From the NCBI GenBank assembly GCA_030601705.1, contig JAUWBM010000004.1:1-62378 (forward strand): a DNA stretch of 62,378 nt, written 5' to 3'. Shown here in pieces: positions 10,093 to 20,814 of this stretch (position 1 is its first letter; the number at the start of each line of letters is the position of its first letter). The translations under genes and the position numbers were made by a program. The notes below the pieces were generated by a model. That model ran no database searches. It worked only from the letters and a program-made list of their open reading frames with translations, and was not told where the DNA came from. Origin of the DNA: Thermoplasmatota archaeon. Its GTDB lineage: Archaea; Thermoplasmatota; E2; DHVEG-1.

Positions 10093-10896
10093 TTACGGCT
10101 CCAGTCTCCTTCTTTTAATAAGTTCTAGCTTATCCATGGGATCTGTCATAGGTTTTGGACTATGATAGACAGAGATTGTATTCAGTCCGATAAACTTTTT
10201 TTCTATCTCGTCCAATTCTTCCATTGGCAACGGTTTTACGTTACATGGTCGAAGAGGAGTATTAATTTGTACTTCATCTGGTTGAATCTCCCTTGCCAGT
10301 TTTGCGAGTTCATGTGCATAGTCTTTGTTTTCTCCCATAAACATTATTTGAAGATCGAATTTTCCACGGAAATCTCTTCGTAATTCTTTGATGCCCCTGA
10401 GCGTTTGTTCAAATGTTATTTCTTCTGCAGGGCGGCTTATTTTCTGGAAGAGCTCTTGATTTGGTGCATCGAGTTTTGCAACTATTATATCTAGTTTTTT
10501 AAGATCGCTTTGAACATTTTTATCATACATTAAAGAAGAATTGGTAAGTATTGCAAGTGGCAAATCTGTTAGTTCTCTAATGATTTGTATTGCTTTACTC
10601 ATGTTTTTTGCCAAGGTAGGTTCCCCCATCCCGGAGAGCGTGATTACATCAGGTGTTGTTTGATGGAGGGCATGTTGTAGATCTTTTTTGAGTTTATCTA
10701 GTGAGATAAAAGATTTTCTTTGTCTTGTAATTCTATCGGTTTCTTCTAGTTGGCAATAAATACAATCAAAAGAGCATATCTTTTTTTCTGAACAAATGAG
10801 ATCAACACCTAATGATTTCCCTAGCCTCCACGATGCAACAGGCCCGTAGATAATTTTCATGATGTTTAATAAAACCATTCTTTGGTATTTAATCAT
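10093..10896 (-). CDS. radical SAM protein (COG0731-like)
   Basis: KKICSFDCIYCQLEET CX3CX2C; LSGMGEPTLAKN; likely start is the internal ATG at about 10860. Confidence 0.8.
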   Translation of the reverse strand: MIKYQRMVLLNIMKIIYGPVASWRLGKSLGVDLICSEKKICSFDCIYCQLEETDRITRQRKSFISLDKLKKDLQHALHQTTPDVITLSGMGEPTLAKNMSKAIQIIRELTDLPLAILTNSSLMYDKNVQSDLKKLDIIVAKLDAPNQELFQKISRPAEEITFEQTLRGIKELRRDFRGKFDLQIMFMGENKDYAHELAKLAREIQPDEVQINTPLRPCNVKPLPMEELDEIEKKFIGLNTISVYHSPKPMTDPMDKLELIKRRRLEP

Positions 10897-11083: not shown

Positions 11084-12205
11084 ATGTTAAATGTTTATAC
11101 TTTGACTAATCTTTGTAAAGCTACTTCCAAAGGTATAAAAGCATTTTGTAGTATATTATTTCAGATGAAAAATAATGAAGATCTTGCCCCGGGTCTAGTG
11201 ATTTGGGAGATTACCCTGAAATGCAATCTAAGATGTCGACATTGCGGTTCATCTGCAGGAAACGCAAGACCTAATGAATTAACGACCAAAGAGGGTCTCA
11301 GATTATGTAACGACCTTGCGAGATTAGGTTTTAGGGGTGTAACTTTGTTTGGTGGTGAACCGTTTCTTCATAAGAATTGGGATATTTTAGGTAAAAAAAT
11401 TAAAGATTTGGGCATGAAACTCTCCATTGTGTCAAATGGATTTGTAAATGCAAGGAATGTACTTCCTAAGTTAGCAAGATTACATGTTGATTCTGTGCAG
11501 ATTGGTTTAGATGGAGCTTCTTCAAAAACACACGACTATATACGAGGAGTTAGCGGATCTTTTGAAAAAGCTATTGACTTTTTACGTCTATCAAAAAAAG
11601 CCGGTTTATCAACTGGAGCTATAACAACGATGAGTAAAATGAATTTTAAGGAACTGCCAGCGTTAAGGGATCTTATTATCAAGGAGGGAATTGATTGGCA
11701 AATCCAAGAAGGTGTTCCGATAGGTAGATTCCCAAAAGATAAGGTTTTATCTCAACAGGAATATTATTCTATGGGGCTTTTTATCGCTGCCACTCGGAAA
11801 AAATATTCTTTTAAAAAGATTTTGATAGGCGGATCTCATAACCTTGTTTTTCATTCACAATTTCTTCCAAATATGTCTGCTCCTATAGAATGGAAAGGTT
11901 GTTGGGCAGGAAAAAGAGTCCTAGGAGTACAAAGTGATGGCGGAGTGAAAGGTTGTCTTGCATTATCTGATGAATTCATTGAGGATAACATCAGGGACAG
12001 AAGTATTGTCGACATTTGGAATGATCCAAATTCCTTTTCGTACAATAGAAAATTTAAGAAAACTGATTTAGGGGAAAATTGTAGGGATTGCAAATATGCG
12101 GATACATGTAAAGGTGGCTGTTCGACCCGATCGAATGCATTGGCGGGTATATTCCATAACGATCCTTTCTGCTTTTATAGAATTGAACAAACATTATTTG
12201 ACTAA
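11084..12205 (+). CDS. radical SAM/SPASM peptide maturase 1
   Basis: CNLRCRHC, FGGEPFL, C-terminal SPASM CRDCKYADTCKGGC...C; adjacent to small precursor-like ORFs. Confidence 0.85.
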   Translation: MLNVYTLTNLCKATSKGIKAFCSILFQMKNNEDLAPGLVIWEITLKCNLRCRHCGSSAGNARPNELTTKEGLRLCNDLARLGFRGVTLFGGEPFLHKNWDILGKKIKDLGMKLSIVSNGFVNARNVLPKLARLHVDSVQIGLDGASSKTHDYIRGVSGSFEKAIDFLRLSKKAGLSTGAITTMSKMNFKELPALRDLIIKEGIDWQIQEGVPIGRFPKDKVLSQQEYYSMGLFIAATRKKYSFKKILIGGSHNLVFHSQFLPNMSAPIEWKGCWAGKRVLGVQSDGGVKGCLALSDEFIEDNIRDRSIVDIWNDPNSFSYNRKFKKTDLGENCRDCKYADTCKGGCSTRSNALAGIFHNDPFCFYRIEQTLFD

Positions 12206-12262
12206 GCTAGAAATTGAAATTCATGCGAAAAGTTTTTTAACTAATATTTAATACGTGTTTTC

Positions 12263-12475
12263 ATGAAACATGCTAGCAATAATACCATGAATGAGCTGAT
12301 AAAAATAGGAAGCATGCTCGGAGTTGAAAAAGAGGATATCTACCAACTAAAAAAGAAAGCCTCGAATAAAGAAATGACGAACCTACAGATACTATTCCCG
12401 CACGATCCAACAGATTGCTACAAGGATCCTTGTGGCGGTTACTATGGTACCATAAGCATAAACGATTTTCAATAA
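12263..12475 (+). CDS. candidate modified-peptide precursor 1 (C-terminus GGYYGTISINDFQ)
   Basis: Small ORF between two rSAM/SPASM genes; leader IGSMLGVEKEDI and core YGTISINDF shared with four further ORFs. Confidence 0.75.
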   Translation: MKHASNNTMNELIKIGSMLGVEKEDIYQLKKKASNKEMTNLQILFPHDPTDCYKDPCGGYYGTISINDFQ

Positions 12476-12525
12476 ACCGTAGTCCTCTCCTTTAAATACC
12501 AAAGTATAGATCGGTAATAAGGAAA

Positions 12526-13563
12526 ATGAGCCTGAAAAACACCTATGCCCCAAGCCAGGTGGTCTGGGAACTTACCTTGCAGTGTAATCTAAAATGTATT
12601 CACTGTGGTTCATCCGCCGGAAAAGCCAGGCCTAACGAACTTTCTACTGCAGAAGCTCTTAACCTCTGCAAAGACCTGGCAGAAATCGACTCTAAAGAAG
12701 TCTGCTTCATGGGAGGTGAACCATTTCTTCGAAAAGAATGGTACAGACTCGGCAGAGAGGTTAGAGATTTAGGGATGAGACTCTTAGTTATCTCAAACGG
12801 CTTCATCGGAAATGAGGACATTATTTCTAAACTTGTTAAATTGCAGCCTTATGGTGTCTCAATAAGTCTCGATGGAGCAACAGCTCAGACTCATGATCAT
12901 ATCAGGGGAGTAGAGGGGTCTTTCAAAAAAGCAATGGAATTTATCTTTTTGTCTAGGAAAGCGGATCTACCAACAGCAGTTATCACAACGGTGAACAAGT
13001 TGAATTTTAAAGAGTTACCCATGATCAAAGAGTTATTGCTTGGGAAACATGTTGCTTGGCAAATTCAAACTGCTTCCCCCGAAGGAAGATTTCCAGAGAA
13101 ATTACTGTTATCGGAAGAAGAATTCTATTCTCTTGGCCTCTTTATTGCTTCTCTCCAGACAAAATATTCTACAAAAGAACTACCCGTCGTTGGTGCACAC
13201 TGTTGTGGGTACTATTCCAGATACATACCACATGTAGGATTATCTTCTGATTGGAGAGGATGCCAAGCAGGCATATCAATTTTAAGTGTTAAAAGCAATG
13301 GCGATGTAATAGGTTGCCTTGCAACATCAGATAAGTACATCGAAGGTAACATTCGAAACAGGAGTATTATTGAAATCTGGAATAATCCAAATTCTTTTGC
13401 ATATAACAGACATTTTAAAACAACTGATTTAGGAGATAACTGTATTGATTGCAGGTATGGAGAAAAATGTAAAGGTGGCTGTATGGGTATGTCAATCGCT
13501 TTAACCGGTAAACCTCACAATGACCCCTATTGTTACTATAAAATTGAACAAAAATTGTCTTAA
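12526..13563 (+). CDS. radical SAM/SPASM peptide maturase 2
   Basis: CNLKCIHC, MGGEPFL, SPASM CIDCRYGEKCKGGC...C; paralog of 11084..12205 throughout. Confidence 0.87.
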   Translation: MSLKNTYAPSQVVWELTLQCNLKCIHCGSSAGKARPNELSTAEALNLCKDLAEIDSKEVCFMGGEPFLRKEWYRLGREVRDLGMRLLVISNGFIGNEDIISKLVKLQPYGVSISLDGATAQTHDHIRGVEGSFKKAMEFIFLSRKADLPTAVITTVNKLNFKELPMIKELLLGKHVAWQIQTASPEGRFPEKLLLSEEEFYSLGLFIASLQTKYSTKELPVVGAHCCGYYSRYIPHVGLSSDWRGCQAGISILSVKSNGDVIGCLATSDKYIEGNIRNRSIIEIWNNPNSFAYNRHFKTTDLGDNCIDCRYGEKCKGGCMGMSIALTGKPHNDPYCYYKIEQKLS

Positions 13564-13626
13564 AATAAACAATTTATTGAAAGATAATCTTTTTATATAT
13601 ATTTAGACATTATAAACTGATAAAAT

Positions 13627-13806
13627 ATGATCCCAACAAAAATATTTGAAATTGGATCTATGCTTGGACTTAATGTTAAAGATATCAGGGATCTTGAGTC
13701 AAACTGGGACAAATCAGATATACCAAAGGCATCAATCGCCTTTCCATTAGATAATTATAAAGATGGCATATTCTATGGTACCATAAGTATAAACGATTTC
13801 AAATAA
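13627..13806 (+). CDS. candidate modified-peptide precursor 2 (59 aa; MIPTKIFEIGSMLGLNVKDIRDLESNWDKSDIPKASIAFPLDNYKDGIFYGTISINDFK)
   Basis: Translated by hand (below the ORF-track length cutoff); leader and core shared with neighbouring precursors. Confidence 0.75.
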   Translation: MIPTKIFEIGSMLGLNVKDIRDLESNWDKSDIPKASIAFPLDNYKDGIFYGTISINDFK

Positions 13807-13824
13807 CTAAAGAGGCATGAAGGG

Positions 13825-14034
13825 ATGGTTTCAGATAAACTATACGAGATAGGGGGGGACCTTGGCTTAAACAAAAAAGATATTGATGATGTTTTGTCAA
13901 CTAGACCAGTCAATAAAGACAATGTTGAATCTATCTCTCCAGTAGAAGTATACAAAGCGATTGGTAGATATGGCACTGTAAGCATAAACGATTTCCAAGA
14001 GGCAAGGAGACATCACGTATATGTTTCCAAATAA
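13825..14034 (+). CDS. candidate modified-peptide precursor 3 (core RYGTVSINDF, extension QEARRHHVYVSK)
   Basis: Leader KLYEIGGDLGLNKKDIDDVLS and core YGTVSINDF. Confidence 0.75.
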   Translation: MVSDKLYEIGGDLGLNKKDIDDVLSTRPVNKDNVESISPVEVYKAIGRYGTVSINDFQEARRHHVYVSK

Positions 14035-14230
14035 ACTTTATGAGATAGGTCAGAATCTCGGTTTAAACAAAAAAGATGTCGAAAGCGTTTTGTCTACTAC
14101 GCCAGCCAATGAACGTGATATCAAATCTATCCCTCCCACGGAAATCTATAAGGAATTCGGTAAATATGGCACCGTTAGCATACATGATTTCTCAAGAGCA
14201 AAAGGATACCGTGAATATGATTCCAAATAA
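14021..14230 (+). CDS. candidate modified-peptide precursor 4 (core KYGTVSIHDF, extension SRAKGYREYDSK)
   Basis: Leader KLYEIGQNLGLNKKDVESVLS and core; overlaps precursor 3 by 14 nt. Confidence 0.75.
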   Translation: MFPNKLYEIGQNLGLNKKDVESVLSTTPANERDIKSIPPTEIYKEFGKYGTVSIHDFSRAKGYREYDSK

Positions 14231-14390
14231 ACTTTATGAATTAGGTCAGTGTCTCGGCTTAGATAAAAGAGATATTGACAATGTTTATTCCTCCTTGGCA
14301 ACAAAGAAAGGCGATGCTAGCTTTACCTCACCGTTAGAAGTATATAAAGATTCATGCCATTACGGTACCATAAGCATAAAAGATTTCTAA
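14217..14390 (+). CDS. candidate modified-peptide precursor 5 (core HYGTISIKDF)
   Basis: Internal ATG of the 14076..14390 ORF; MIPNKLYELGQCLGLDKRDI leader aligns with precursors 2-4; overlaps precursor 4 by 14 nt. Confidence 0.75.
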   Translation: MIPNKLYELGQCLGLDKRDIDNVYSSLATKKGDASFTSPLEVYKDSCHYGTISIKDF

Positions 14391-14455
14391 TAGATCCTTA
14401 TTTCTGGGCAGTTATTTTTCTATACTACAACAAAGATTATGTTAACTGAGTCACC

Positions 14456-15775
14456 ATGAAACTTAATTTAGGCTGCGGAGGCGTTTATAAAAAAGAGTAT
14501 CTAAACATCGATGCCTTTGATAGTACCGTCGCAGATAAAATAATGTCAGCTGTTGACCTTGACCTAAAAGACAACAGTGTCGAAGAAATCATTGCTTCTC
14601 AACTCATTGAGCATCTAGGTCTTATGAGTAGCATATACACATTAAGTGAATGCTATAGAGTTTTAGAGTCAAAAGGAACACTTATCATTGAAACTCCAGA
14701 TATTAAAACCTCGTTTAAAAAATATATAACCGGTGGTCGTGAAGATAGAAAAAACATATTACCATGGATTTATGGATTAGAGAATCCAGGTTTGCAACAC
14801 AAATTTTGCTTTCCGGACGATCTCCTTGGAGAAATCTGTAAAAACATTGGTTTTACCAATATCAAAACAGAACATATTGAACCCGATGAATATCAACCAA
14901 TCTTAAAGATGACCTGCAACAAACCAATTGACCATCAATATCCACAATTCATTACTTTTCTCAGGAAACAATTACTTCGAAAAAAAGCAGTAGATTTACA
15001 CAACCAAATACTAGGATTAGAACAAGAAAGACTAATTGATTTTTTCTCATCGAAAATGAACCAACTCGATGAAAAGGTGAACAATGTCATACTAAATGAA
15101 ATAACAATAGAAGGAGCAGTTTCCAGCCCAGAAATAACAAATATTTTTCTCGAATCCCTCCTCAAAAAAAGAGTAGTCCCTCAGAAGAGAATCGATAAAC
15201 ATCTCAAAACAATAAAGTCACTAATCAAATTAGATTTTCTCGATATCCTCTGTTACAGCATGAGAGAAATACCCGACTTGGTCGGAGAACAAAAAAGAGT
15301 ATTTCATACAATAACTGATCTAGGAAAAAGCACGGTAAAAAACCTGTTAGACGACACAAAAAAATCCACTGTTATCAAGTCCCTTTCAAAAACAAAAAAG
15401 AAATGTAGAACCTATGATACAATTGATTTTTTCTCAGAAAAAATGCTACTCAAAAAAGCAAATCGGCTCTTCCAACGTGGATCAAAGGAATTTGTTTTAC
15501 AAAGATACGACGAAGCCATTAACAACTTCAAAATTTCAATTGGTTTTTATCGAGACCAAATTCTCACCTATTGGAACCTTGGAAGACTCTACACCTTAAC
15601 CAATAATAGAAAACAATCAAAAAAGTATTACAAGAAAACCCTTGATCTCCTCAAACTACTCGACTATAACAACAAAGAAATTATCAAAAATAAAATTGAA
15701 GAAGAAGTAAGCAAACTAACTAGAGAAACACCCAAAAATCCAATCACTTCGTTGGAAAATATTGTTGATGGCTAG
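14456..15775 (+). CDS. SAM-dependent methyltransferase with C-terminal TPR-like region; candidate tailoring enzyme
   Basis: KLNLGCGGVYKKEYLNIDA; CYRVLESKGTLIIETPD; C-terminal tandem helices ANRLFQRGSKEFVLQRYDEAINNFKISI. Confidence 0.75.
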   Translation: MKLNLGCGGVYKKEYLNIDAFDSTVADKIMSAVDLDLKDNSVEEIIASQLIEHLGLMSSIYTLSECYRVLESKGTLIIETPDIKTSFKKYITGGREDRKNILPWIYGLENPGLQHKFCFPDDLLGEICKNIGFTNIKTEHIEPDEYQPILKMTCNKPIDHQYPQFITFLRKQLLRKKAVDLHNQILGLEQERLIDFFSSKMNQLDEKVNNVILNEITIEGAVSSPEITNIFLESLLKKRVVPQKRIDKHLKTIKSLIKLDFLDILCYSMREIPDLVGEQKRVFHTITDLGKSTVKNLLDDTKKSTVIKSLSKTKKKCRTYDTIDFFSEKMLLKKANRLFQRGSKEFVLQRYDEAINNFKISIGFYRDQILTYWNLGRLYTLTNNRKQSKKYYKKTLDLLKLLDYNNKEIIKNKIEEEVSKLTRETPKNPITSLENIVDG

Positions 15776-17157
15776 ATATACGTTTTCTTTTTTATCTTGC
15801 TCCGATCAACCTTAGAGATGATACCCGCGGTGTGTGGTTTGATTTTATCCACTTCTTTTACATTTACCTCTATATCTGATCCAAATCTTTCTTGAAAACG
15901 GTGTTGTATTTCAGAAAATAACTTGTCAACTGGAAGATCGGTGTTTCTCAACTCGCTATCAAGTACTGCAAATATCTCTATCTTATTGATCCTGGGCTGA
16001 ATTATTTGAAACCGCTCAATACAATCGATATTAAACGAGCAACTAAGCTCGCCAATAAATTCATCAAGAGTGGAAGGAAGAACTATTGTTCCATTTGGTA
16101 AAACGATCGAATGACTTTCTCTCCCATAAATCTTAGAGATAAGTCCACCCGCTAGCCCACAAGTACACTTATCATCAGCAGGCGTTACGATATCATCAAG
16201 CCCCATATATCGAATTATAGGAGTTCCTCTTCCATAGAGTCTTGTCACCACTACATGACCGGGTTCACCAGGAGAAACAGGTTCACCAGTATCATCTATA
16301 AATTCTAGATATACAAAATCGGAATGGACATGATATTTTCCCTGCTTACATTGAAAGGCCATAGGGCCTGATTCCATGGCACCATATGTATCAAACACCT
16401 GCGTCTCAAACGAATTTTCAATATAATTTTTTAAATACTTATCTAATACAGACCCGGTTGATAATATACATCTCGGCTGTATATCTTTTCCAAATCCCCC
16501 TCTTTTAAGAAGGGCTAGTTGTCTTAGCATCCCGGGATAGCCGCCAATAAACTCAGGTTGAAAGCTAGTGATTTTCTTCATGATCTTTTTTGGATCATCA
16601 TACGTGTGAAAAATCTGTATATTGTCAAGAGAAAAAAATGGCTTTAATTTTGGAATCACCCCATCAGTGAGGTATTCCCTCTCGGCGCTATGTTCAGAAA
16701 GATCTGCAATAACCGTCATTCTGGTTTTTCTCCAGTCGACATTATGTTCTTTTATCACCCGTACATATCCTAACACTCCACGAACAATTGCAAACATGTC
16801 AATATAAATCGAGACTGATTTCCCTGTTGTACCAGAAGTATAACTCCTAATGATTTTTGTTTTGTCTGTAGTAGATGAAATAACTCTATCTGGAAAGTTT
16901 TTTCTTATATCGTCCTTACTTATAAATGGAAGTTTACCAATATCTTCAATACCTTTTATATCATCTGGATGGATACCTGCTGCCGTATATTTTTCATGAT
17001 AAACTGGAACAGTATATGCATATTTTACTAGCTTCCGAAGTTGTTTATCTTGAAATTTTTTCAAATTGTCGGCATTCATCCTCCGCAGTCTGTTCACATC
17101 AACCAAGTAACATTTTAAAACTCGAAAAATGAAAAAGGGATTGAGAAATGGATTCAT
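15772..17157 (-). CDS. CapK/PaaK-like adenylate-forming enzyme
   Basis: SYTSGTTGKSVSIY AMP-binding P-loop; DTYGAMESGPMAFQC; TRLYGRGTPIIRYMGLDD. Confidence 0.85.
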   Translation of the reverse strand: MNPFLNPFFIFRVLKCYLVDVNRLRRMNADNLKKFQDKQLRKLVKYAYTVPVYHEKYTAAGIHPDDIKGIEDIGKLPFISKDDIRKNFPDRVISSTTDKTKIIRSYTSGTTGKSVSIYIDMFAIVRGVLGYVRVIKEHNVDWRKTRMTVIADLSEHSAEREYLTDGVIPKLKPFFSLDNIQIFHTYDDPKKIMKKITSFQPEFIGGYPGMLRQLALLKRGGFGKDIQPRCILSTGSVLDKYLKNYIENSFETQVFDTYGAMESGPMAFQCKQGKYHVHSDFVYLEFIDDTGEPVSPGEPGHVVVTRLYGRGTPIIRYMGLDDIVTPADDKCTCGLAGGLISKIYGRESHSIVLPNGTIVLPSTLDEFIGELSCSFNIDCIERFQIIQPRINKIEIFAVLDSELRNTDLPVDKLFSEIQHRFQERFGSDIEVNVKEVDKIKPHTAGIISKVDRSKIKKKTYI

Positions 17158-17471: not shown

Positions 17472-17942
17472 ATGAACTGTCCATATTGCAACCATATTGA
17501 GACGAAAGTAACAGACTCCCGCGATACAGGGAATTACACAATTCGCAGAAGACGGGAATGCCTGAACTGCAACAAGCGATTTACTACGTATGAATATATC
17601 GAGATGACACCAGTATATGTCATTAAAAAAGACGGTAGAAGAGAAAAATTTGATAGAAAGAAGATTAAACACGGCATAATGAAAGCATTAGAAAAACGCC
17701 CAATTAGCCATGATAAGATCGAAGAAATGCTCGACTCAATTGAAGAGAAAATAAGAAGAGCCGGTATGGAGGAAATCAAGAGTTCTATTATAGGAGAATA
17801 CGTTATGGAGCGTCTCAAAGAAACAGATCAAGTTGCCTATATCAGATTTGCTTCTGTTTATAGATCATTTACTGACGTTACTTCATTTGAAAAAGAGGTC
17901 AAAAACCTGATAGAGCAATATAAAGGAGAGATTAAAAAATGA
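17472..17942 (+). CDS. nrdR: transcriptional repressor NrdR
   Basis: MNCPYCNHIETKVTDSRDTGNYTIRRRRECLNCNKRFTTYEYIE zinc ribbon plus ATP-cone. Confidence 0.95.
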   Translation: MNCPYCNHIETKVTDSRDTGNYTIRRRRECLNCNKRFTTYEYIEMTPVYVIKKDGRREKFDRKKIKHGIMKALEKRPISHDKIEEMLDSIEEKIRRAGMEEIKSSIIGEYVMERLKETDQVAYIRFASVYRSFTDVTSFEKEVKNLIEQYKGEIKK

Positions 17943-19966
17943 TACGGAAAGTTAGAAAAAGAGATGGGAAAATAGCCGATTTCAACCCAATACAAATAAC
18001 AGAAGCTATCTGGAAAGCAGCACAAGCTGTTGGGGGAAAGGATTACAGAAAATCAGCCGAACTCACCAACAAAGTAATGGATCTTCTCGAAAAACAAACC
18101 AAACGCGGGCAAATGCCAACTGTTGAACAAGTACAAGATGCCGTAGAAAAAACACTTATTGAAGAAGGACACGCAAAAACTGCAAAAGCATACATTCTGT
18201 ATAGAAAACAACACGCAGATATCCGAGAAATAGGTGGACTTCTTAAAGACATAGATGTAGTCGATGGATATCTCAGCATGATGGACTGGAAGGTCAAGGA
18301 AAACAGCAACATGAGCTATTCACTCCAAGGATTAAACGTCTATGTAACAGAAAACATTGTCTCAAATTATTGGCTTCATAAAATCTTTCCACCGGAGATT
18401 GGAGATGCTCACACCAATGGCCAATTTCACATTCATGATCTTGGAACACTCGGTGCGTATTGCGTCGGCTGGGATCTCAAAGATATACTCCTTATGGGTT
18501 TTAAAGGAGTATCTGGAAAAATTGAAAGCAAACCTGCAAAACACTTTGGAACTGCGCTGATGCAAATAGTCAATTACCTCTATACGTTGCAAGGGGAAGC
18601 AGCAGGAGCACAGGCGCTATCAAACTTTGATAGCCTACTTGCTCCGTTTATTAAAAAAGATGGTCTTAATTATGGTGGTGTCAAGCAAGAAATTCAGAAA
18701 TTCCTTTTCAACATGAATGTACCAACAAGAGTTGGTTTTCAAAGCCCATTTACAAACATAACCATGGATCTCACAGTTCCAAGTTACATGACCGATGAAC
18801 CAACAATCATTGGTGGAGATCTTATGGATGACAATTACAGTGACTACATTGATGAAATGGATATGATGAATCATGCATTTGCAGAGATCATGCATGACGG
18901 CGATGCAAAAGAACGTCCATTTACATTTCCTATTCCAACATATAACATTACAAAAGATTTTGATTGGAATAACGATGGACTTGAACCCTTATGGAAGATG
19001 ACTGCAAAATATGGAATACCCTATTTTTCAAATTTCATAAATAGCGATATGAAACCTGATGATGCTAGGAGTATGTGTTGTCGTTTGCGCTTGGACAATA
19101 GGGAGCTGCGTAAACGTGGTGGTGGACTATTTGGTGCAAACCCAAAAACTGGATCTATTGGTGTTGTCACCATTAATATGCCAAGAATTGGGTATCTTGC
19201 TAAAAACGATGACGATTTCCTCGAACGACTAGACGGTCTTATGGTGCTTGCAAAGCAAAGCCTTGAGATCAAACGAGAAATAATCGAAAACTTGACGGAT
19301 AGCGGTCTGCACCCATATTCACGAGTATATCTATCTGATGTGAAGAAGACATTTGGTGAATACTGGAAAAATCATTTTTCAACAATAGGTCTTATTGGGA
19401 TGAACGATGCAATGCTGAACTTTATGAACAAGAGCATCGGTGATCCTGAGGGTAAGCAGTTTGCTGAAAAAGTACTTGATTATATGAGAAAAAGGATGGC
19501 AGATTTCCAGGAGGAAACGGGTAATATTTTTAATCTCGAAGCAACACCTGCGGAAGGAACGAGCTACCGTTTAGCAAGGATTGATAAGGTGCAATATCCT
19601 GATATTAAAACATATAACCAAGAAGCATACTCAAACAATGGCGGCAGAGGTATAGAACCATACTATACCAACTCAACACAACTTCCTGTAGGATACACAA
19701 CTGATGTTTTTGAAGCACTTGATTTGCAGGATGCTCTTCAGTCAAAATATACTGGTGGTACTGTTTTACACATTTTTCTTGGTGAGGAGGAACCATCCCC
19801 AGAGGCGACTAAAAGACTTGTAAGAAAAGTGGCAGAGAACTATAGTTTACCGTATTATACAATAACTCCAACCTTTAGTATATGCCCAATACATGGATAT
19901 ATACCTGGTGAACATAAGTACTGTCCAAAATGCGATGAAGAAATAGGCTATAAAGGAGGTGAATAA
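17939..19966 (+). CDS. nrdD: anaerobic (class III) ribonucleoside-triphosphate reductase, catalytic part without the glycyl-radical loop
   Basis: N-terminal ATP-cone; NrdD core; ends CPIHGYIPGEHKYCPKCDEEIGYKGGE-stop, just before where the glycyl-radical loop is expected. Confidence 0.92.
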   Translation: MIRKVRKRDGKIADFNPIQITEAIWKAAQAVGGKDYRKSAELTNKVMDLLEKQTKRGQMPTVEQVQDAVEKTLIEEGHAKTAKAYILYRKQHADIREIGGLLKDIDVVDGYLSMMDWKVKENSNMSYSLQGLNVYVTENIVSNYWLHKIFPPEIGDAHTNGQFHIHDLGTLGAYCVGWDLKDILLMGFKGVSGKIESKPAKHFGTALMQIVNYLYTLQGEAAGAQALSNFDSLLAPFIKKDGLNYGGVKQEIQKFLFNMNVPTRVGFQSPFTNITMDLTVPSYMTDEPTIIGGDLMDDNYSDYIDEMDMMNHAFAEIMHDGDAKERPFTFPIPTYNITKDFDWNNDGLEPLWKMTAKYGIPYFSNFINSDMKPDDARSMCCRLRLDNRELRKRGGGLFGANPKTGSIGVVTINMPRIGYLAKNDDDFLERLDGLMVLAKQSLEIKREIIENLTDSGLHPYSRVYLSDVKKTFGEYWKNHFSTIGLIGMNDAMLNFMNKSIGDPEGKQFAEKVLDYMRKRMADFQEETGNIFNLEATPAEGTSYRLARIDKVQYPDIKTYNQEAYSNNGGRGIEPYYTNSTQLPVGYTTDVFEALDLQDALQSKYTGGTVLHIFLGEEEPSPEATKRLVRKVAENYSLPYYTITPTFSICPIHGYIPGEHKYCPKCDEEIGYKGGE

Positions 19967-20125
19967 ATGAAAGAAAATTTAGAAAGTAAAAGAACTGAGT
20001 GTGAGGTATATTCGCGAGTTGTTGGTTATCTCCGTCCTGTTAACCAATGGAACCGTGGCAAACAACAGGAATTTACTGATAGAAAAACATTTGATATGAA
20101 GAATAAGATACTGGTTACAAAATGA
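19967..20125 (+). CDS. small glycyl-radical domain protein completing NrdD (52 aa)
   Basis: MKENLESKRTECEVYSRVVGYLRPVNQWNRGKQQEFTDRKTFDMKNKILVTK; RVVGYLRPV..WN.GK..EF..RK is the NrdD C-terminal glycyl-radical motif; SD AAAGGAGGTGA upstream of ATG. Confidence 0.88.
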   Translation: MKENLESKRTECEVYSRVVGYLRPVNQWNRGKQQEFTDRKTFDMKNKILVTK

Positions 20126-20814
20126 AGATTGGAGGATTTCAGAAAACATCACTTTTAGATTATCCCGATCGGATTAGTGCAATAGTTTGGACTGTCGACT
20201 GTAACTTCAAGTGCCCCTTCTGTTATAATAAGAACCTTGTCGATGGTAATGTAGAGTTATTTAATGAAGATGAGGTTCTTTCCTTTCTTAAAAAACGAAA
20301 AGGATTGCTTGAAGCTCTTTCTATTTCTGGTGGAGAACCATTTTTACAAAAGGATATTTTAGATTTTACGTCGAAAGTAAAGAAACTTGGATATCTTGTA
20401 AAAATTGACACAAACGGTACTTTTCCAGAGAGACTCAAAGAACTTATCGATAAAAAACTTGTTGATTATGTATCAATGGATATAAAGGCTCCAAAAAATA
20501 AATACAGTAAATTAGCTGGAATTAAAGCAAATCTTAAAAAGATTGAACAATCAATTGAAATTATAAAGAATAATGCACCTGATTATGAATTTAGAACGAC
20601 GTTTGTTCCTGATTTACTGAAAAAGGAAGATATAATTGAAATAGCAAAATGGTTGGAAGGATCTAAACGATTTTACCTTCAGCAGTTCAAGAGCGATACG
20701 CCATTAATTTCATCAAAGCTAGACAATGTTGCACCATATTCTAAGGAAGATATCATTAAAACATTAGAGGAGATAAAACCATTTTTCAAAAGCTGTGATG
20801 TGAGGGGAGTTTGA
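20122..20814 (+). CDS. nrdG: anaerobic ribonucleotide reductase activating protein (radical SAM)
   Basis: TVDCNFKCPFCYNKNL; SGGEPFLQ; 4-nt overlap with the preceding ORF. Confidence 0.9.
   Translation: MKIGGFQKTSLLDYPDRISAIVWTVDCNFKCPFCYNKNLVDGNVELFNEDEVLSFLKKRKGLLEALSISGGEPFLQKDILDFTSKVKKLGYLVKIDTNGTFPERLKELIDKKLVDYVSMDIKAPKNKYSKLAGIKANLKKIEQSIEIIKNNAPDYEFRTTFVPDLLKKEDIIEIAKWLEGSKRFYLQQFKSDTPLISSKLDNVAPYSKEDIIKTLEEIKPFFKSCDVRGV

Follow-up and report, generated by a model that had tools for sequence, protein, structure and literature searches.

A candidate splicease-like radical SAM peptide system in a Thermoplasmatota archaeon, with relatives in Asgard archaea and bacteria

What might two radical S-adenosylmethionine (rSAM) enzymes make from five small peptides encoded between and beside them? 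The question is raised by positions 11,084 to 17,157 of contig JAUWBM010000004.1 (assembly GCA_030601705.1), from a Thermoplasmatota archaeon whose named close relatives are Thermoplasmata/Thermoplasmatales metagenome-assembled genomes (MAGs). In the window, by which we mean the whole analysed stretch of 62,378 nucleotides, two rSAM/SPASM genes are interleaved with five peptides that all carry the core X-Tyr-Gly-Thr-[IV]-Ser-Ile-x-Asp-Phe. Our best reading of the locus is a splicease-like system for ribosomally synthesized and post-translationally modified peptides (RiPPs), in which the enzymes would excise tyramine (C8H9NO, 135.0757 Da) at the X-Tyr-Gly (XYG) site of the precursor core. The same kit occurs across Thermoplasmatota, Asgard archaea and some bacteria, and as far as could be checked it is undescribed. 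The enzymes and precursors are the following.

11084..12205, + strand: rSAM/SPASM-1 (r1 clade), putative splicease-like maturase with CX3CX2C and WQIQ signature (family models, tree)
12263..12475, + strand: precursor peptide 1, core G-Y-Y-G-T-I-S-I-N-D-F, X = Tyr (alignment, homologue search)
12526..13563, + strand: rSAM/SPASM-2 (r2 clade), putative splicease-like maturase (family models, tree, signature residues, predicted fold)
13627..13806, + strand: precursor peptide 2, core I-F-Y-G-T-I-S-I-N-D-F, X = Phe
13825..14034, + strand: precursor peptide 3, core G-R-Y-G-T-V-S-I-N-D-F with a 12-residue tail, X = Arg
14021..14230, + strand: precursor peptide 4, core G-K-Y-G-T-V-S-I-H-D-F with a 12-residue tail, X = Lys, overlapping peptide 3
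14217..14390, + strand: precursor peptide 5, core C-H-Y-G-T-I-S-I-K-D-F, X = His, overlapping peptide 4

A first-pass annotation, made from the DNA letters, had placed here these seven genes, a methyltransferase-TPR gene and a convergent CapK-like gene; all are present where it put them, and Pfam and NCBIfam agree on the enzyme classes. The CX3CX2C motif and complete set of SPASM cysteines that it claimed for both enzymes are seen in the alignment, the Pfam matches are clear (Radical_SAM, E=1.7e-26 for rSAM-1 and 5.5e-22 for rSAM-2; SPASM, E=6e-9 and 1e-8), and the two proteins are 53% identical. The five peptides align with invariant columns G10, L13, G14, D19, P39, Y43, K44, Y49, G50, T51, S53, I54, D56 and F57, behind a short leader of the form [IL]GxxxG[LV]xxx[DE][IV]. 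The shared core YGT[IV]SIxDF holds for all five, as annotated, whereas the residue before it is different each time: Y, F, R, K and H, in gene order. The annotation had all five peptides ending at or near the core, but peptides 3 and 4 run on for 12 residues beyond it. NCBIfam and Pfam returned no family model for the five peptides and one chance-level match, in keeping with the annotation, which did not recognise the core motif as that of a named family.

A search for co-occurrence, which the annotation had proposed as a check, supports a link between peptides and enzymes. Peptide homologues (E<=1e-5) were found in 11 of the 99 other genomes searched, and all 11 carry an r1/r2-type rSAM (present in 19 of 99; p=6e-10) as well as the methyltransferase-TPR gene (13 of 99; p=6e-13). 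A broader peptide model, applied to all 46 genomes of the family, detected peptides in 13, all with the rSAM, and added no further genome with full-length free peptides. The core pattern matched 63 times in 4,627 open reading frames (ORFs) around related loci and not once in the same ORFs shuffled. XYG is present in the core of all five window peptides and of 41 out of 42 distinct Thermoplasmatota cores, collected with a pattern that admitted G, A or S after Tyr. A genome may encode up to eight precursors, and in some precursors (L055, L068, L071) the core comes in two to four tandem copies. Gene content and conserved co-occurrence thus support a radical-SAM RiPP-type locus, and a maturase/precursor relation beyond chance is highly probable. 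Homologues far from any rSAM, which the annotation had named as an argument against such a link, do exist (e.g. L050, L052 and L054), but every genome that holds them also encodes the rSAM. In genome G001, lone peptides at L050, L051, L052 and L054 end in YGTVSLKDFQ (X = K, M, K and L), and three of them have no rSAM within the fetched flank.

Where do the enzymes come from? The best named models for r1 and r2 are TIGR03913 and TIGR04103 (NCBIfam), the latter of which we take to be the family containing PlpX (IPR026482). In a tree with four heme-type rSAM/SPASM proteins of the same genome as outgroup, which does not order the ingroup clades, the archaeal clade and TIGR04103 stand together, separated from the outgroup at 100/100. 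The residues HCGSxAG and WQ[ILV]Q are common to the ingroup and absent from the heme-type proteins. A housekeeping rSAM identity for r1 and r2 was set aside, with the heme-type paralogues of this genome falling outside the clade. Cyanobacterial relatives are more distant (33-35% identity); two that served as positive controls (L154 and L158) score 833 and 802 bits, above the TIGR04103 cut-off of 725. Cyanobacterial loci hold nif11-leader precursors ending in PLYGLPP, QIYGVV and QPMYGVV, which match the published PlpA sites, together with a small PlpY-like gene. The archaeal enzymes are best read as a sister branch to TIGR04103 rather than as members of the known family, because they reach about 200 bits against 725, have no PlpY and work beside a different leader. 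PlpX itself is assigned to IPR026482 (PMC11002830). Within the archaeal branch, r1 and r2 form separate clades, both of them old. Given that in G001 an r1 piece adjoins a type-1 peptide, far from r2 and the peptides of r2 (L049, L053), each enzyme seems to have had its own precursor set. Residue 226 of rSAM-2 (window 13201-13203) is an extra Cys in nearly all r2 proteins and Asn in r1 proteins, a difference that might reflect distinct functions of the two enzymes.

Beyond the window, GTDB species genomes were scanned with the enzyme alignment, which picked up 562 relatives; 80 of these were read. The nearest, at 45-66% identity, belong to Thermoplasmatota, Asgard archaea (Thor-, Loki-, Hel-, Heimdall- and Hodarchaeota), Elusimicrobia, Nitrospiraceae, Syntrophus/Smithella and a deltaproteobacterial MAG. 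Beside nearly all of these with enough flank lies a small protein with the same leader and a Tyr core, in which Tyr is usually followed by Gly. The part between leader and core varies: Thermoplasmatota precursors have a short linker there, those of Asgard archaea a membrane-helix-like segment, and those of the Nitrospirota/Syntrophus group contain a Kunitz/BPTI domain (Pfam, E=1e-13 and 5.6e-15). All four Kunitz-fused bacterial precursors have X = Lys. These proteins (L095, L099, L102 and L103) end in SKYG[AG]V[GS]xRDF directly upstream of the rSAM gene, and three of their genes overlap its start by a few bases. Variants with Ala or Ser for Gly (YAS, YSS or YST) occur at L097, L112, L118 and L120, in subclades from Thorarchaeota and Lokiarchaeota. 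The loci of several relatives (L061, L064 and L067) form a single run of peptides, r2, r1, methyltransferase and CapK, and L060 retains the window order r1-peptide-r2-peptide.

Which reaction would these enzymes catalyse? The splicease PlpXY excises tyramine at XYG (PMC10533398, PMC11002830, PMC10373908), at the sites MYG and LYG in PlpA and in the tags PIRPLYGLPI and AVAAGYGVVFP (PMC10533398). By analogy, tyramine excision at XYG is the somewhat probable reaction here too; the chain would be opened and resealed at a single Tyr, which would leave a peptidyl alpha-ketoamide, a reactive group as in protease inhibitors. The annotation had listed sactipeptide, ranthipeptide, cyclophane and mycofactocin/PQQ-type pathways and so missed the splicease, the best match. 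A different outcome would be a cyclic RiPP, with a crosslink of cyclophane, ether or Tyr-Tyr type on the conserved Tyr. rSAM/SPASM enzymes often crosslink aromatic residues, the Thermoplasmatota cores keep Y0, S+4, D+7 and an upstream Tyr at -5/-6 at nearly fixed spacing, and YGT could, to go by its letters, be a triceptide-type aromatic-X-X motif. The r2 model also resembles SuiB, SkfB and PqqE (TM-score 0.67-0.76 by query, 15-24% identity), sharing their overall rSAM and SPASM fold; searches of solved structures and folds with rSAM-2 returned generic RiPP maturases and other rSAM enzymes only. Across the whole clade, however, Tyr is the sole near-universal core residue (YGTIS, YGVYS, YGLPP and YGVVI at the Tyr), and outer members retain it alone (YGVYSRK, YGVFH, YDVYAK, MYGVVI, LYGLPP). 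Since no partner residue at a fixed distance from Tyr is universal across clades, the comparison favours chemistry on Tyr and the backbone over a crosslink as the common reaction. Considering in addition that the nearest family with published activity performs tyramine excision, and that crosslinking offers no reason for a diversified X, we regard it as rather improbable.

The conserved Tyr, the several similar cores and the adenylating enzyme and methyltransferase nearby would also suit a small redox cofactor of the pyrroloquinoline quinone (PQQ) or mycofactocin kind. Mycofactocin was set aside on the MftC model (TIGR03962; 119-129 bits against a cut-off of 265) and PQQ on the PqqE model (TIGR02109; 92-97 bits against 381), both far below the scores of TIGR03913 and TIGR04103. 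A single small cofactor of this kind sits poorly with genomes that encode as many as eight precursors of differing X, with tandem cores and with membrane-anchored and Kunitz-fused forms, and is a very remote prospect. Sactipeptides and ranthipeptides require a Cys-rich core for their thioether bonds, and they were rejected as no Cys is conserved in the cores, which likewise lack the Lys-Trp and Glu-Tyr substrate motifs of the SuiB/SkfB/PqqE group.

If splicing is the reaction, the residue X acquires a particular meaning. Many serine and cysteine proteases owe their specificity chiefly to the P1 side chain. A spliced precursor would be a covalent reversible protease inhibitor, with X supplying the P1 side chain and Gly-Thr-Ile-Ser the primed side. 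The annotation had read the invariant core as pointing to a fixed and not a diversified product; this is contradicted by X, which is diversified within genomes in front of the invariant YG. X repeats in 2 of 89 within-genome pairs (eight genomes with at least three peptides), whereas most other core positions are the same among paralogues. With a single genome taken from each lineage, and in a test that was devised post hoc and covers few lineages, 25 of 27 X residues were distinct against 20.8 expected (p=0.002); stratified over both phyla, the combined p was 0.0007, and for the Asgard sets p was 0.02 with close relatives and 0.16 without. X alone is over-dispersed within genomes, the other core positions tested being under-dispersed or neutral. 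With Tyr, Phe, Arg, Lys and His at X, the five window peptides would then form a panel directed at proteases that differ in their P1 preference. We propose such a protease-inhibitor panel tentatively, because X would be P1 in the ketoamide and is rarely repeated within a genome; the Kunitz fusion in bacteria, with its constant Lys, points the same way. Spliced beta-residues are described in a review as giving potent protease inhibition (PMC10373908). More speculative again is the full picture of an archaea-centred splicease branch without an RiPP recognition element (RRE) partner, in which each genome would keep one precursor per P1 side chain as a matched set of ribosomal alpha-ketoamide inhibitors; these would be free peptides in Thermoplasmatota, would have a membrane anchor in Asgard archaea and would be joined to Kunitz domains in bacteria. 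Splicing might also be right and the ketoamide serve signalling, anchoring or attachment at the membrane or cell surface. Ketoamide units react readily with other groups (PMC10533398), and the membrane-helix-like segment of the Asgard precursors would agree with such a role; the one-of-each pattern of X within genomes and the fusion to an inhibitor domain point to proteases instead, and we hold a role other than inhibition to be unlikely.

Several observations weigh against splicease-like processing and an inhibitor panel. Neither family cut-off is reached: TIGR04103 gives 204 bits for r2 and 192 for r1 against 725, and TIGR03913 gives 233 and 216 for the two enzymes against 592. PlpX works with PlpY, a short partner of RRE type, and a PlpY model built from five cyanobacterial genes, whose identity rests on position and the published description, matched nine cyanobacterial loci (E<1e-16) and nothing in the archaeal loci or the window. 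The rSAM-2 model (pLDDT 93) shows rSAM and SPASM folds and no N-terminal RRE, so that leader recognition in r2, judging from the predicted fold, must differ from that in SuiB or PlpXY. No leader protease or exporter is encoded among the cassette genes. XYG is not strict in outer subclades, which replace the Gly after Tyr (YAS, YSS, YST, YTG, YFT), and no XYG precursor is visible near the related rSAM clades L128, L130, L134 and L163. As to the panel, the dispersion of X, besides having been assessed post hoc, weakens to p=0.04 once two tandem-core genomes are added.

How far, then, is the locus comparable to described systems? With PlpXY of Pleurocapsa (TIGR04103, 'nif11-class peptide radical SAM maturase 3') it shares the rSAM/SPASM subfamily by tree and signature residues, XYG cores, several precursors per cluster and, in some precursors, several XYG sites. 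Unlike PlpX, the archaeal enzymes have no C-terminal part of about 75 residues; the leader is the short LGxxxGL form instead of a nif11 or nitrile-hydratase leader (Pfam/NCBIfam), the core continues as TxSxxDF, the enzymes are two paralogues, and methyltransferase-TPR and CapK-like genes are added. TIGR03913 (rad_SAM_trio, 'GDL motif peptide-associated radical SAM/SPASM maturase') is the best-scoring named model and cross-matches TIGR04103 proteins strongly, but no GDL-motif peptide was seen in the window. A review citing Scott et al. 2022 refers to the bacterial kingdom only (PMC10373908), and a 2025 survey of archaeal RiPPs gives ranthipeptides and sactipeptides as the rSAM classes without naming spliceotides (PMC12144867). 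According to a 2022 review, natural spliceotides had yet to be isolated and had no known biological role (PMC8868522). If our reading is correct, ribosomal backbone splicing would extend to archaea, Asgard archaea included, would do without the known partner and would act on precursors with membrane segments or Kunitz domains; the rarely repeated X would then hint at the purpose of spliceotides. A separate set of P1 residues is predicted for each genome, and the short substrates of leader plus core could also find use in introducing ketoamides into proteins.

Three further features complete the locus.

13590..13605, + strand: candidate promoter of peptides 2-5, an AT-rich TATA-like stretch, TTTTTATATATATT (direct reading)
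14456..15775, + strand: class I SAM-dependent methyltransferase with an all-helical, TPR-containing C-terminal part, conserved cassette member (Pfam, model)
15772..17157, - strand: CapK/PaaK-like adenylate-forming enzyme, convergent (family models, neighbourhood comparison)

The methyltransferase adjoins the rSAM in Asgard loci too and is therefore part of the system. Its model (pLDDT 93) combines a class I methyltransferase with the helical TPR part, and structure and fold searches returned generic methyltransferases and TPR proteins only. The CapK-like gene is a conserved neighbour seen solely in Thermoplasmatota loci, and it was not found in the Asgard loci. As a guess from the model, the TPR part may hold the precursor; equally a guess is that the methyltransferase or the CapK-like enzyme tailors the released peptide.

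Some gene calls deserve comment. The first 27 residues of rSAM-1 are absent from its relatives, and its true start is likely the ATG at 11165. By direct reading, peptide 5 starts at 14217 inside a longer mechanical ORF (14076-14390), and the TATA-like stretch lies about 25-35 nt upstream of peptide 2, a possible promoter driving peptides 2-5; peptides 3, 4 and 5 overlap one another by a few bases in an operon-like manner. An Rfam scan of the window gave 0 matches. The flanking genes look housekeeping by eye: another small radical SAM protein upstream (10093-10896, - strand) and an NrdR-NrdD-NrdG-like run (anaerobic ribonucleotide reductase) downstream (17472-20814, + strand). Further afield, a related rSAM from a Myxococcota MAG (L141:7863-9410) has a C-terminal tail, AVYYGIDSPTDPLDAPIPSDAVYYGIDSP, that itself contains XYG repeats, which gives it the look of an enzyme fused to its precursor.

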